From assembly GCF_001542915.1 (NCBI RefSeq), contig NZ_LNNH01000012.1, positions 124,001 through 188,000 of the forward strand: 64,000 bases of DNA. The letters are read 5' to 3'. Below are positions 20,916 to 24,923 of the stretch, piece by piece. Position numbers and translations under genes: made by a program. The stretch comes from Peribacillus simplex (GTDB lineage: Bacteria; Bacillota; Bacilli; Bacillales; DSM-1321). The first letter of the stretch is position 1. Every line of letters begins with the position of its first letter. The notes under the pieces were generated by a model. That model saw nothing but the letters and a program-made list of their open reading frames with translations, was not told the origin of the DNA and did no database searches.

Positions 20916-22355
20916 CTATAGCATTCTTTTTTTTCGGCTTTTTTTCTCATGCAGCCATTTCTTCAAGAAGAAGAAGCCTAAGATGGATGAAATGATAAGA
21001 CCGCTTGTCGTAACGAATACAGCTACCCATTCATATAAGGTATAATCCATATACGCCTTCCAAGGCAATCTCTTTTTCCAATCTTCAATGTAAAGATTCA
21101 TCCCGAATATTCCTGAGACGACCGTATAAATCGTCAGGATCTGTAAGAGATAATTACTGCTCTTACCAGAGAGTTTATCCTGATTCTGATAGAGGTAAGA
21201 AAGCGTTTCTTTTACCTCCTTATAGAGCGGCGCAATCCTGAAGGTTTCATCCGTTATTTTGAATAGCTCTTTGCCTGACGCCGTGCTATTAACTTCAGTA
21301 AATAAATACTTCGTAGTAAACTCCGTGATCATGAAGATCAGTTGCTCCGTATTGGATTGATCTTTTTCGATATCTATCTGGGAATGCTCATGAACCAGCT
21401 TTAGCAGCACAATTTTATAGTAGAAGAAAAGCAATATCGAATAGAAGTTTTGGCCGTACATTTCATTTGCCAATTGCAACTGCAGCTTCCCTTTCGCTTT
21501 CGTGACACAAGCAAAATGGTACATGCTCGTAACATAGAAAGTTTCTTCCCCCCACCTGTCATACACCCGCTCCTTGTAATACTTATCAATATAAGCGGGG
21601 TTCAATGCGCCGATGTATGGCTCCCCATCACTGTCGTATCCATTCAGCTCACTTGCCCGAAATAAATCATTTTTACTGATGACATGATCCTCAGGCAATT
21701 CAATATAACTGACGACATACATTCGTTCATCGATAAAGAAGGGCAAACTTCCGAAATAAGTGGGATCTGTCTGCTCCTCATCGATAAATTCCTCCATTGG
21801 CGGCATTAGTTCGTTGAAGATGAAATCCTTTACTTGTTCATACTCGTTTTTCCTGCAGCCGACTTTTGTCTTCTGTTCATCTTCAGCAATCGGTTCGAGA
21901 ATTCGAAAAGTATCGGCAAAATATAGCACGTCATCGTACGAAAGCCCTTCAGGTAATGTAACACGCAGGTTCATCATGCCAATATGAAATGGGCATATGA
22001 AGATATCAACAGAATTAATGATGAATGAGGTAGTTAAAAAGGGGGATTCGAAGGTACAATCAATATCGAGCTTTTTCGTAAAACGCCGCAATCCTTCTTT
22101 TTCTTTCAAATTCGCTGGAAATAGGATCGGTTCGATATAGGGCATGAAATACTTTTCCAAATTGCGGTGTGAAATCTTATGCTCACCGTAAAATTGGCCT
22201 TGCTGTTCCATATCTCTCAAGTTCAAGAAAACGAAATGGTCTTCCAGCAACGTTTGCACAAATGTTTCAATTTTATTCCCTTCGAGCGTGAACGGAAATA
22301 GATACTGTTGGAAACTTCGCTTCGTTGAATCATTTTTTTCTAGCTTCACTTCCAT
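20916..22355 (-). CDS. CorA-like two-helix membrane protein with GMN motif
   Basis: This 479-residue protein has a large N-terminal cytoplasmic region and two C-terminal membrane helices (about 400-416 and 439-463) joined by a short loop that follows FGMN (GMN 418-420). The helix-GMN-loop-helix arrangement and basic tail (KKWLHEKKSRKKRML) are those of CorA/ZntB/Alr1-type divalent cation channels. The cytoplasmic part is unlike classical CorA in sequence and is Asp/Glu/Tyr rich. The likely role is a divalent cation channel or a CorA-fold relative of unknown substrate. GGAGGAA lies before the ATG. It stands alone. Confidence 0.65.
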   Translation of the reverse strand: MEVKLEKNDSTKRSFQQYLFPFTLEGNKIETFVQTLLEDHFVFLNLRDMEQQGQFYGEHKISHRNLEKYFMPYIEPILFPANLKEKEGLRRFTKKLDIDCTFESPFLTTSFIINSVDIFICPFHIGMMNLRVTLPEGLSYDDVLYFADTFRILEPIAEDEQKTKVGCRKNEYEQVKDFIFNELMPPMEEFIDEEQTDPTYFGSLPFFIDERMYVVSYIELPEDHVISKNDLFRASELNGYDSDGEPYIGALNPAYIDKYYKERVYDRWGEETFYVTSMYHFACVTKAKGKLQLQLANEMYGQNFYSILLFFYYKIVLLKLVHEHSQIDIEKDQSNTEQLIFMITEFTTKYLFTEVNSTASGKELFKITDETFRIAPLYKEVKETLSYLYQNQDKLSGKSSNYLLQILTIYTVVSGIFGMNLYIEDWKKRLPWKAYMDYTLYEWVAVFVTTSGLIISSILGFFFLKKWLHEKKSRKKRML

Positions 22356-22479
22356 AATTATATTCCTCCGATTAAACTGCGGTGTTCAAGTTACGAACCA
22401 TCTTGTTCCTTATCTTTACCCAAGTATACGTAAACAAAACGGAACATATTATAGAAATAAAATGGACAATTGAAAACAG

Positions 22480-22590
22480 AAAAAAAAAGATCCCCCGAGC
22501 TTTTGCTCGGGGGCCATCGAAAAGGGTTCTTCAACCCTCTTCACTTTAGGGTACTAGAAACTGATGTTTCTAATGAAAAATCCGATATTC
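22480..22590 (-). ncRNA. Candidate structured small RNA
   Basis: On the minus strand an extended -10 (TGC-TAAAAT, 22596-22601) is followed by three hairpins in a row. These are TAGAAAC/GTTTCTA (22555-22572), AGGGTT/AACCCT (22523-22538), and a perfect 9-bp CCCCCGAGC/GCTCGGGGG stem followed by nine T. The last is a classic minus-direction terminator, yet no minus gene lies upstream of it; the next minus gene starts beyond it at 22355. The rest of the 450-base gap 22356-22808 holds no ORF I can support. No known RNA family is recognised. Confidence 0.35.
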
Positions 22591-22808
22591 GGACCATTTT
22601 AGCATGTAATGCGAAGATGATAAAACACCGAATTCCTTCATATTCGGCCTTCACACCGTATTAACGGCCAATAAATCCTCATAGACAGAGACTGGCAAAT
22701 GAATTTATAACTGTAGGAATAATGAAAAGCGTCTGCTCAGTCACTTTAGGAACCATGTTTTATAAGGGCGGGAAAGGGTAAATAAAAAAAAGAAAAGGAG
22801 AGAACATC

Positions 22809-22955
22809 ATGAAATCCGATAGCAATAAACAACCCTTGAAGTTTTTCCAAAAAGCAAATCATTCAAAACCTACCGAGAGGAAACAAATGAGTGAATTCAT
22901 CAAAAAAATGAAGATGAACGGGCGGAACTCCCATTTAAATGGCAAAAACTCATGA
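22809..22955 (+). CDS. Small basic protein, 48 residues, unknown
   Basis: An ATG with a strong AAAAGGAGAG site 7 bases upstream opens a 48-codon frame ending in TGA, directly followed by a terminator hairpin. The product is Lys/Asn/Ser rich with no membrane segment (starts MKSDSNKQPLKFFQKAN, ends NGRNSHLNGKNS). Good start signals and a dedicated terminator support a real gene. I do not recognise the family; a small spore or regulatory protein is possible. Confidence 0.55.
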   Translation: MKSDSNKQPLKFFQKANHSKPTERKQMSEFIKKMKMNGRNSHLNGKNS

Positions 22956-22981
22956 CACAATAGAAGGTCATGAGTTTTTGC
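22943..22981. terminator. Bidirectional terminator between convergent small genes
   Basis: CAAAAACTCATGAC pairs perfectly with GTCATGAGTTTTTG (14 bp). It overlaps the end of the 48-residue gene and faces the end of the minus gene at 22984. Confidence 0.85.
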
Positions 22982-22983
22982 GA

Positions 22984-23301
22984 TTAAAATTTGATTTCAT
23001 TTCCCTGCAGATTGTACTTTACACATTTTTTGATACCGATTACATTCAAAAAATGTTTAATTTTCTTCATGGAGGTTGCCTGATATTCATCAACAATCGA
23101 GAACTCTTTAATATAAGCGATTTTTTCCTGGACATTTGTATCTATATGATCTTGATCGCATTCTTTTTCATTTGATTTTTCGCATGTGTACACCACAGCT
23201 TCACCGATTTTCCTGGTCGCCCTATCAAAATAAAAAGAAAACACAATGGCACATTCATCATCGTAAAAAGAGGGTTGAACTTTCATATTAATATCAATCA
23301 T
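22984..23301 (-). CDS. Hypothetical protein, 105 residues
   Basis: This frame starts with ATG behind GGGAGAGAGGTG and ends at the shared terminator. The soluble product has four Cys residues (FDDECAIV region, TCEKS, KECDQ, KKCVK) and no signal peptide. No family is recognised. It lies downstream of the PapR-like peptide gene on the same strand, but a terminator at 23478-23505 separates them, so it should have its own promoter. Confidence 0.6.
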   Translation of the reverse strand: MIDINMKVQPSFYDDECAIVFSFYFDRATRKIGEAVVYTCEKSNEKECDQDHIDTNVQEKIAYIKEFSIVDEYQATSMKKIKHFLNVIGIKKCVKYNLQGNEIKF

Positions 23302-23477
23302 TAACCTTACACCTCTCTCCCTTTTGTTAAATACACTATAACAAAATTCAGAAAGGGAAATAGGTGTTCCAAACTACACTCCCATTTCTTCCACACCTTC
23401 TAAATGGACCTTATATCCCCCATGCATGGATAATTATAACTAGAGGAATATGCGCAAAAGAATAATCGTCAACGGAA

Positions 23478-23505
23478 TAAAAAAAACATCTTCATAAGAA
23501 GATGC
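23478..23505 (-). terminator. Terminator after the PapR-like peptide gene
   Basis: On the minus strand CATCTTC-TTAT-GAAGATG is followed by eight T, about 30 bases after the peptide stop. It makes the peptide gene a monocistronic unit. Confidence 0.8.
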
Positions 23506-23536
23506 TCAAAGGTCTGAATGAAAGCTTCAATTCTTA

Positions 23537-23650
23537 TTATTTATATAAACCTGGAAGTTCTGCGTAAAGGCCTGGCAATTCAGTAGGAACGATTACGATC
23601 GCAGCGATGAGAAGAAAAGATACGACTAATGCTTTAGTACTTTTTTTCAT
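23537..23650 (-). CDS. PapR-like secreted signalling peptide precursor (37 codons)
   Basis: ATG 23648-23650 lies 9 bases after AAAGGAGG and opens a 37-codon frame closed by two TAA codons. The product has a Lys-rich start (MKKSTK), a hydrophobic core (ALVVSFLLIAAIVIV) and a short tail carrying two copies of a heptapeptide, TELPGLY and AELPGLY, then a final Lys. The repeats use different codons throughout, so the peptide sequence rather than the DNA is conserved. The tail resembles the mature PapR heptapeptide ADLPFEF of B. cereus (A, acidic, L, P, x, x, aromatic). It is divergent from a PlcR-type regulator at 23847. The inferred job is export, maturation to a 5-8 residue signal, re-import and activation of that regulator. 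Confidence 0.72.
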   Translation of the reverse strand: MKKSTKALVVSFLLIAAIVIVPTELPGLYAELPGLYK

Positions 23651-23682
23651 AGGTCAAACCTCCTTTTCTTATTAAAAAATAT

Positions 23683-23722
23683 TGGTTAAAATAGAAATTA
23701 ATTCTATAGTTATATTTAACCA
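23683..23722. promoter_or_regulatory. Dyad between peptide and regulator genes
   Basis: TGGTTAAA (23683-23690) and TTTAACCA (23715-23722) form an 8-bp inverted repeat enclosing a second dyad, ATAGAA/TTCTAT (23691-23707). It lies 33 bases upstream of the peptide ATG and 125 bases upstream of the regulator start, and is a candidate operator for the regulator. It is not the B. cereus PlcR box. The role is inferred. Confidence 0.45.
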
Positions 23723-23846
23723 CACTTCATAAAACTGGATATTCCGACTAAATAATCTATTTAAACCGCTAAGGGCATGTACATACAGTTTTCACCGATT
23801 TTTCATGATAAAATATAACTCTAGGCATATTTTAAGGAGAATCATA

Positions 23847-24740
23847 ATGGATTTTTTTGCAGTTGGACAAAAGATCAAAGAGCTACGTAAGCAAATCGGA
23901 CTTTCCCAAGAAGAGTTAGCATCCGGTATATGTACACAAGCACAGATCAGCAAGATCGAAAAAGGCGATGTCTATCCATATGCCTCCACCCTTTACTTGA
24001 TTTCCCAACGGTTAGGTGTTGATGTAAACTATTTTTTCGATATCGGAATGACACCTAGGCTGGATTACGTGGAAGAAGTGATTTATCAATTAAAGATAGC
24101 CAGACGGACACGAAATTATGAGGAAATGCAGCAAATAGTCAAGGCGGAGGAAAACAATCCCCTTTTTCTTCAGAATAAAAAGAACCATCAGCTGATTCTT
24201 TGGCACAAAGGGATCTACGAATACGAAAAAAATAAAGACTTGGAAAAAGCCATTGAATTTATTTCCAAGGCCATCGCCATTACTCATACTACGGATAAAA
24301 TCTATTCGGAACGCGAGCTTGAAATTTTAAGCAGCCTTGGTGTCATGTATGTGGCCGAGGAACGATACGAAAATGCTTATGCCCTGCTAAAGAAAGCTTT
24401 GGATCACTTGAAGGCAATCCCCTTCATGACGGATAAGACGTTAAAGACCCGCCTGTCCTACAATTTTTGCAGGGTTTTAACACGCCTTGGCCGCTTTGAA
24501 GAGTCGATTGCCTGCTGTCAGGATTCCATCAAATGGTGCCTTGAACATGATCAATTATATGCTTTGGCCGATCTACATTATCATTTAGGCTACAATTACG
24601 AACTGGTGGGCAATTTTAAAGAAGGTAAAGACTACTTGGAGAAGTCAGCCTTCCTCTTCTCGTTGCAAAAAAATCATGCCTTTGTTACCTTCATCAACAA
24701 AAAGTTGGAAAGCTGGAAAAATGAAATGAAAATAAACTGA
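23847..24740 (+). CDS. PlcR-type RRNPP transcriptional regulator (HTH + TPR)
   Basis: This 297-residue regulator has an N-terminal XRE-type helix-turn-helix (residues 5-62, KIKELRKQIGLSQEELASGICTQAQISKIEKG) followed by tetratricopeptide-like helices to the end. That is the layout of PlcR, NprR and other RRNPP receptors, which bind short imported peptides in the TPR groove. ATG 23847 is chosen because AAGGAG lies 8 bases upstream; an in-frame ATG at 23805 has no such site. Length is near PlcR (285). A PapR-like peptide gene is divergent on the other side of a shared control region. Targets other than these two genes cannot be read from the window. Confidence 0.82.
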   Translation: MDFFAVGQKIKELRKQIGLSQEELASGICTQAQISKIEKGDVYPYASTLYLISQRLGVDVNYFFDIGMTPRLDYVEEVIYQLKIARRTRNYEEMQQIVKAEENNPLFLQNKKNHQLILWHKGIYEYEKNKDLEKAIEFISKAIAITHTTDKIYSERELEILSSLGVMYVAEERYENAYALLKKALDHLKAIPFMTDKTLKTRLSYNFCRVLTRLGRFEESIACCQDSIKWCLEHDQLYALADLHYHLGYNYELVGNFKEGKDYLEKSAFLFSLQKNHAFVTFINKKLESWKNEMKIN

Positions 24741-24753
24741 TTCTTCATTTCAA

Positions 24754-24780
24754 AGCCATTCCCGCGGGAATGGCTCTTTC
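24754..24780 (+). terminator. Terminator after the PlcR-like gene
   Basis: AGCCATTCCC-GC-GGGAATGGCT is followed by CTTTCCCTT, 14 bases past the stop. Confidence 0.75.
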
Positions 24781-24923
24781 CCTTCACTTCACAATTGGCT
24801 CTCGCCCTTCAGCTTCAAAACCTGTATCTACATTTCAAATTTCACGTCAAAATGAAGTATAATAAAGAGATGCTTCAAAAATCATCTTATAAAAAAGGGC
24901 CCCAGCACCCGCCGCTTTAGTTT

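Follow-up and report, generated by a model that had tools for sequence, protein, structure and literature searches.

The window, a 64,000-nucleotide stretch of Peribacillus simplex DNA, very probably encodes a PlcR/PapR-like, autoinducing quorum-sensing cassette with a cytoplasmic receptor, in which a short propeptide gene and a regulator gene are divergent, their start codons 196 nt apart (Table 1). Both genes are spanned by the range, 23537..24740, that a first-pass annotation of the sequence had singled out. The structure of the genes, purifying selection on the propeptide, conservation of the pair, a 16-bp box that co-occurs with the pair, and the kinship of the regulator to PlcR were all observed. 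The closest named relatives that share the locus are Peribacillus sp. SI8-4, P. frigoritolerans, P. simplex and P. butanolivorans.

Table 1. Features of the cassette and its surroundings (positions in the window)
Feature	Position	Strand	Evidence
37-codon propeptide gene with two ELPGLY copies	23537..23650	-	translation; genus conservation; pN/pS 0.08
Leader (residues 1-22), basic N-terminus and hydrophobic core, presumed Sec export	23585..23650	-	hydropathy and inspection by eye
ELPGLY copy 1, preceded by T	23564..23581	-	
ELPGLY copy 2, preceded by A and followed by the final K	23543..23560	-	
Ribosome binding site AAAAGGAGG ahead of the propeptide ATG	23659..23667	-	block also visible in intergenic alignment
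Terminator-like hairpin of the propeptide gene, GAGCATCTTCTTATGAAGATGTTT and T-run	23484..23507	-	hairpin scan
Degenerate box TATAACTATAGAATTA ahead of the propeptide gene	23699..23714	-	
Box before the regulator, TATAACTCTAGGCATA	23814..23829	+	
Box TATAACTAGAGGAATA, upstream of the 105-aa gene by about 134 nt	23435..23450	+	
Box TATAACTGTAGGAATA, upstream of the 48-aa ORF (about 87 nt) and of the opposite-strand 479-aa gene (about 350 nt)	22706..22721	+	
PlcR-type regulator, 297 aa, HTH and TPR/RNPP_C	23847..24740	+	Pfam, profile search, AlphaFold, Foldseek
Terminator-like hairpin after the regulator	24754..24775	+	hairpin scan
105-aa conserved protein, putative target, no family above cut-off	22984..23301	-	
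48-aa ORF, present in some relatives, putative target	22809..22955	+	
479-aa conserved protein, putative target	20916..22355	-	

The propeptide gene and its repeated signal

Translation of 23537-23650 (minus strand) gives MKKSTKALVVSFLLIAAIVIVPTELPGLYAELPGLYK followed by a stop. This 37-codon frame, which had been annotated as a gene with a ribosome binding site and a terminator-like hairpin, is real. A regulator match at E <= 1e-20 was found in 34 of the 36 genus genomes and a close orthologue (at least 57% identity) in 32, and in 31 of these 32 the divergent propeptide, 195-199 nt upstream, was intact and had its ELP tail. Divergent order is the rule in this clade. The one exception (L015, the same genome as L002) has a propeptide frameshifted in the leader; loss of the frame or its tail where the regulator is kept, which had been named in advance as the contrary outcome, was confined to that genome. 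The propeptide frame is under purifying selection, with pN/pS = 0.08 in the 17 ELPGLY-group genomes compared (nine codons silent, three with an amino-acid change), a set that omits L013, the second genome of the species to which the window belongs, and the frameshifted L015. The hairpin scan of 22300-24900 returned 7 terminator-like sites, compared with 2.1 in shuffles.

The two copies of the signal differ at 6 of 18 nucleotides, every difference being synonymous, and in a simulation the peptide was retained in only 8.5e-5 of six-difference variants of an ELPGLY copy, which upholds the earlier argument that codon differences between the copies reflect selection on the peptide. The doubled tail itself also stands, but the unit had been described as a heptapeptide. 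In the ELPGLY group the preceding residue varies (T, S or N at copy 1 and A at copy 2) while ELPGLY is constant, so the conserved unit is better called a hexapeptide. Direct hexapeptide repeats without a spacer in two relatives (ELPGVH in L032 and ELPSVY in L034) led us to reject a heptapeptide unit. Since the hexapeptide is invariant and the residue ahead of it variable, we favour ELPxx(aromatic/His/Leu) as the core signal.

Among the 31 genus propeptides, 18 contain ELPGLY twice, eight have a different core in duplicate (ELPSVF, ELPSVY, ELPPML, ELPTQF or ELPTLF), one contains four spacer-free ELPGV[YH] hexapeptides, and four have a single copy (ELPSLF or ELPSEY). Within the genus a Lys after the core is restricted to the ELPGLY group; two species (L031 and L033) have a TKA end, and the remaining propeptides stop at the last core residue. 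Second PlcR-like regulators also occur in Peribacillus (L045, L049, L051, L052 and L055; L044, L050 and L053) with other peptides, either divergent (DLPNQH or ELPYEH) or downstream (DLPDQH, KLPVQH x2 and GLPPQH x2).

The regulator and its kinship to PlcR

The product of 23847-24740 had been annotated as an HTH-TPR regulator of the RRNPP type, and HTH_3 and RNPP_C both scored above their Pfam cut-offs (RNPP_C at 43.2 bits, cut-off 26.5), as did TPR_12. A 297-aa protein with TPR lies within the size criterion for RRNPP(A) receptors of about 250-500 aa. The proposed relationship to PlcR is supported over the whole length of the protein by sequence profile and structural model. By single sequence PlcR was the best solved relative (1.9e-13), and in a profile search of solved structures PlcR (2qfc, residues 1-289, E 2e-35) was the only full-length match, the other 10 being partial matches to the HTH or TPR region. 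Ten close sequences went into the AlphaFold model, which is all-helical with a mean pLDDT of 82 and a low-confidence HTH. When it was submitted to Foldseek the top five hits were PlcR chains, with a loose overlay (TM 0.59-0.65, rmsd 7.8-9.2) and approximately 20-22% identity in those alignments, so we place moderate confidence in a predicted PlcR-like fold. Only one close regulator was found in the own genome; the next match had an E value of 9.7e-5 over query residues 5-92.

PlcR residues K87, N201, K204 and Y275 align with R87, N206, R209 and F279 of the regulator, and K89 with R89, so that most of the differences are conservative, while Q237 aligns with D242 and is changed. We take N201 and K204 to be peptide-groove residues of PlcR; among the 72 regulators with a divergent peptide, 62 retain N at the N201 position and 70 have R or K at that of K204. 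On our reading, N205 and K208 of PlcRa (PMC3519770) match the same two residues. The reported peptide-groove residues of PlcR include K87, K89, Q237 and Y275, and Glu6 of PapR contacts K89, Q237 and Y275 (PMC6568020). In the peptide described here the Glu6 position is Leu and the receptor has Asp242, so peptide recognition must differ from that of PlcR/PapR. Close pairs with different signals showed too many receptor differences for specificity residues to be named.

The 16-bp box

Alignment of 32 divergent intergenic regions revealed two conserved blocks, both with TATAACTNTAG. The box consensus is TATAACTNTAGGMATA, 16 bp with the dyad TATnnCTnnAGnnATA; 10 of 16 positions are symmetric at each site in the window, and the preferred sequence is strongly asymmetric. 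A first motif search for copies in the own genome gave no match. That genome has only three exact sites, a pair at this locus and a single one ahead of an ABC operon; those at 23435 and 23699 each deviate from a looser pattern at one position. The 36 genus genomes together hold 79 exact sites, compared with 9 for the reversed control (these totals, and the order control below, are sums over the scan tables). An exact site was absent from five of the 36: two have no regulator at E <= 1e-20, two have a distant one only, and the fifth (G009) has an orthologue and one-mismatch sites.

Across the order, 86 sites were found in 60 of 397 genomes, compared with 23 control sites. Just over half (44 of 86) lay at most 70 nt ahead of a regulator start, 70 such starts having been compared, and 19 more within 3 kb upstream. 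The other 23 sites were elsewhere: four at opp4, one at another regulator and 18 at other places. The box sites at the locus are far above chance. Single distal sites outside Peribacillus are not, since the 23 sites found elsewhere, 18 of them at neither opp4 nor a regulator, equal the 23 of the control. Secreted-enzyme-like ORFs, identified by reading, adjoin the box in L233, L235 and L241; such distal boxes were not accepted as evidence for a secreted-enzyme regulon outside Peribacillus, their count being at chance level. At L234 the box lies between a propeptide-like ORF with DLPPQH and a 533-aa ORF, and no PlcR-type regulator was among the nearby ORFs listed. In L231 and L232 (genus g3) the box is ahead of the same MFS-transporter-like ORF, again identified by reading.

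The TATAAC within the regulator box fits a -10 hexamer (TTCACC, 17 nt, TATAAC) and may double as one. This fit was made by reading and is not listed by the consensus promoter scan, which was uninformative, giving 8 hits compared with 7.9 in shuffles.

Association of the box with the gene pair

At E <= 1e-40 a regulator match was present in 161 of the 397 genomes of the order, and 131 distinct regulator proteins were sampled, with further regulator places in the order outside the sample. The order sample consisted of 40 regions, two of them with the same regulator, and further loci; L012, L077-L105, L125 and L248 were left out of the one-by-one reading. A box regulator was defined as one with a box of at most one mismatch 25-60 nt before its start. 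By this definition 69 of the 72 distinct box regulators sampled had a divergent exported-type propeptide; of the other three, one has a frameshifted propeptide (L002) and two have none (L199 and L222). Among the 59 regulators without a box, an LP peptide was divergent in 7, downstream in 8 and, by the criteria used, absent in 44. One of the downstream calls, at L195, looks spurious. Thirteen proteins in this count were keyed by box-scan loci; without those entries (118 proteins) the numbers were 52 with box and divergent peptide, 7 with box only, 7 with divergent peptide only, 8 with a downstream peptide and 44 with neither.

A FastTree phylogeny placed 71 of the 72 box regulators in one clade of 100 (support 0.905), which also holds 29 regulators without a box. 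Seven of the eight regulators with a downstream peptide fell outside this clade, and the spurious one fell inside. The sampled regulators are related, and shared ancestry inflates the counts of box and pair together. The tree also contained a 13-member sister group in genus g31 (including L197, L198, L200, L201, L205, L228 and L229), whose regulators have neither box nor detected peptide; it is possible that these are receivers of signals from other cells.

Signals and copy number across the order

A counting script yielded 60 distinct divergent propeptides, 18 with at least two real copies of the signal. Two of 16 'two-copy' calls (DLPAIN and SLPTLQ) were dropped as spurious. The script required 'LP' after residue 18, while the underlying propeptide searches did not, and four loci with long or weak-RBS precursors (L191, L192, L196 and L204) were added by eye after the limits of the finder had been relaxed. 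The most extreme of these, L191 (G141:C1, a one-contig genome), encodes at 166-739 of the locus a divergent precursor of 230 aa with 14 copies of AELPTMY, whose core occurs in six synonymous DNA versions. DLPFPPWVF occurs twice in L192, AIPFPPRML five times in L196 and AELPPVY once in L204. L192 and L196, which share the genus label g27 with L191, have the same box and the same divergent place with a different code. The number of copies per precursor was 1, 2, 4, 5 and, once, 14.

Putative targets and a peptide importer

The 479-aa protein had no Pfam or NCBIfam match. A box with at most two mismatches lay 301-516 nt upstream of its gene in 15 of 16 loci read. The distal box of the own genome is approximately 128 nt before an operon that encodes OppD-like and OppF-like ATPases (ABC_tran and oligo_HPY) and a permease scoring 508 bits against the NCBIfam Opp4B cut-off of 450. 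OppD orthologues were present in 29 of the 36 genus genomes, and the box before them was exact in 17 and had one mismatch in three. It was absent in the other nine, all of them more distant, and seven of these nine genomes have the regulator. The link to an importer is a prediction limited to one clade.

Proposed mechanism and alternative explanations

For the steps of signalling, namely export, processing, import, peptide binding and box binding, we infer a course like that of the PlcR family. The propeptide would be exported by means of its hydrophobic leader, and proteases would then free signals of the type ELPxx(aromatic/His); in this case each precursor would give ELPGLY twice, and the last Lys would be removed. 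Uptake would depend on oligopeptide permease activity, to which the Opp4-type importer, encoded in the box-bearing operon, would probably contribute. Once inside, the peptide would bind the TPR groove of the regulator, and the loaded regulator would bind TATAACTNTAGGMATA at the divergent promoters, at the two neighbouring sites and at opp4. In our favoured reading the peptide gene would be autoinduced, as in PlcR, and the regulator would repress itself, the latter suggested by the position of its box over a -10-like hexamer.

That same hexamer could be read differently: the pair would be real, and the box would serve as a core-promoter element or bind some other factor instead of being the operator of the regulator, in which case the regulon would be unknown. 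The symmetry of the box at only 10 of 16 positions and its strong preference for one asymmetric sequence agree with such a role, and the box before the regulator could have been inherited with that gene for any promoter reason. Against this stand the additional boxes close to the cassette and ahead of opp4. None of the four genus genomes that lack a close orthologue has an exact site, and the sampled regulators with downstream peptides are without the box; we consider this explanation unlikely, and an operator of the regulator remains our preferred reading of the box.

The peptide invites two other explanations. The small ORF is short, its conserved 37-aa product has a basic start and a very hydrophobic first half (as judged by hydropathy and by eye), and by the same means no clear signal-peptidase site was seen in the leaders of the ELPGLY group, all of which might suit a membrane microprotein or an export-related peptide that is not a signal. 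Yet it is the tail that recurs, as ELP, two residues and an aromatic residue or His, with spacing and with copy number (1 to 14) that vary; the ORF is moreover coupled to a TPR receptor, and its tail resembles the ADLPFEF of PapR (PMC6568020). We regard a non-signalling peptide as very improbable. If the tail is a signal, TELPGLY and AELPGLY might be two signals for two receptors and not two doses of one, as the differing residue before each copy would allow and as precursors with dissimilar peptides on record (PMC9765709) illustrate. The single close regulator in the own genome argues against this, as do the spacer-free hexapeptide repeats of L032 and L034, which indicate that the preceding residue is merely the end of the previous copy, and two signals seem to us quite unlikely.

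Comparison with known systems

Like PlcR/PapR of the Bacillus cereus group, the cassette has an HTH and TPR receptor, a short and presumably exported precursor with an x-acidic-L-P-x-x-aromatic tail, a predicted link to Opp, and a predicted 16-bp operator of the form TAT...ATA. The PlcR box is TATGnAnnnnTnCATA (PMC2464732), whereas the box at this locus, TATAACTNTAGGMATA, has a different core with CTnnAG inside. In the B. cereus group papR follows plcR (PMC6753895), whereas the peptide gene at this locus is divergent and not downstream and co-directional; it encodes two copies, and the peptide has Leu where PapR has Glu6. Closer in arrangement is the PlcR paralogue PlcRa of B. cereus, also of 297 aa, with papRa upstream of plcRa and abrB2 as a reported target (PMC3519770). 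In both systems the signal may stop short of the extreme C-terminus, but PapRa has 93 aa with a single proposed signal, CSIPYEY (PMC3519770), and the present propeptide has 37 codons and two copies.

The first-pass annotation had regarded both the divergent order and the doubled signal as unusual. The former prevails in this clade, and an upstream position is also described for papRa; as for the latter, RRNPPA propeptides with up to six signal copies have been reported, including in the PlcR subfamily (PMC9765709). The introduction of that paper places pheromone genes upstream or downstream of the receptor, as does PMC11343458, while its discussion places those of Bacillales downstream, a statement that this clade qualifies. 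The RRNPP_detector catalogue assembles many receptor-propeptide pairs, with a PlcR cluster, and one of its figures has a column showing genomic orientation (PMC10075063); neither Peribacillus nor simplex appears in its main text. A search of the open-licence literature, supplements being outside that scope, turned up no publication on this clade or on the box and peptides described here.

It is tempting to speculate, as one possible account and a tentative one, that the cassette belongs to a deep divergent PlcR-type clade spread over several Bacillales families, in which a near-constant operator is combined with diversifying signals in 1 to 14 copies, so that receptors would be interchangeable at the DNA and private at the signal, and in which the Peribacillus regulon would include the Opp4 importer as a second feedback loop. 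Predicted operator, geometry and receptor scaffold are near constant in this natural series while the peptide code and the dose set by copy number vary, and the series allows direct tests, in soil bacteria that are harmless, of signal specificity and of the purpose of repeated pheromone copies; a link to the import of the signalling peptide is predicted as well. Such peptide-receptor pairs, precursors with repeated signals, a papR gene placed upstream and several orientations of the propeptide gene are already in print. What is new in comparison is the divergent order across a whole clade with a near-constant predicted operator, a relative with 14 copies of the signal as against the six reported for RRNPPA propeptides, and the predicted importer link.
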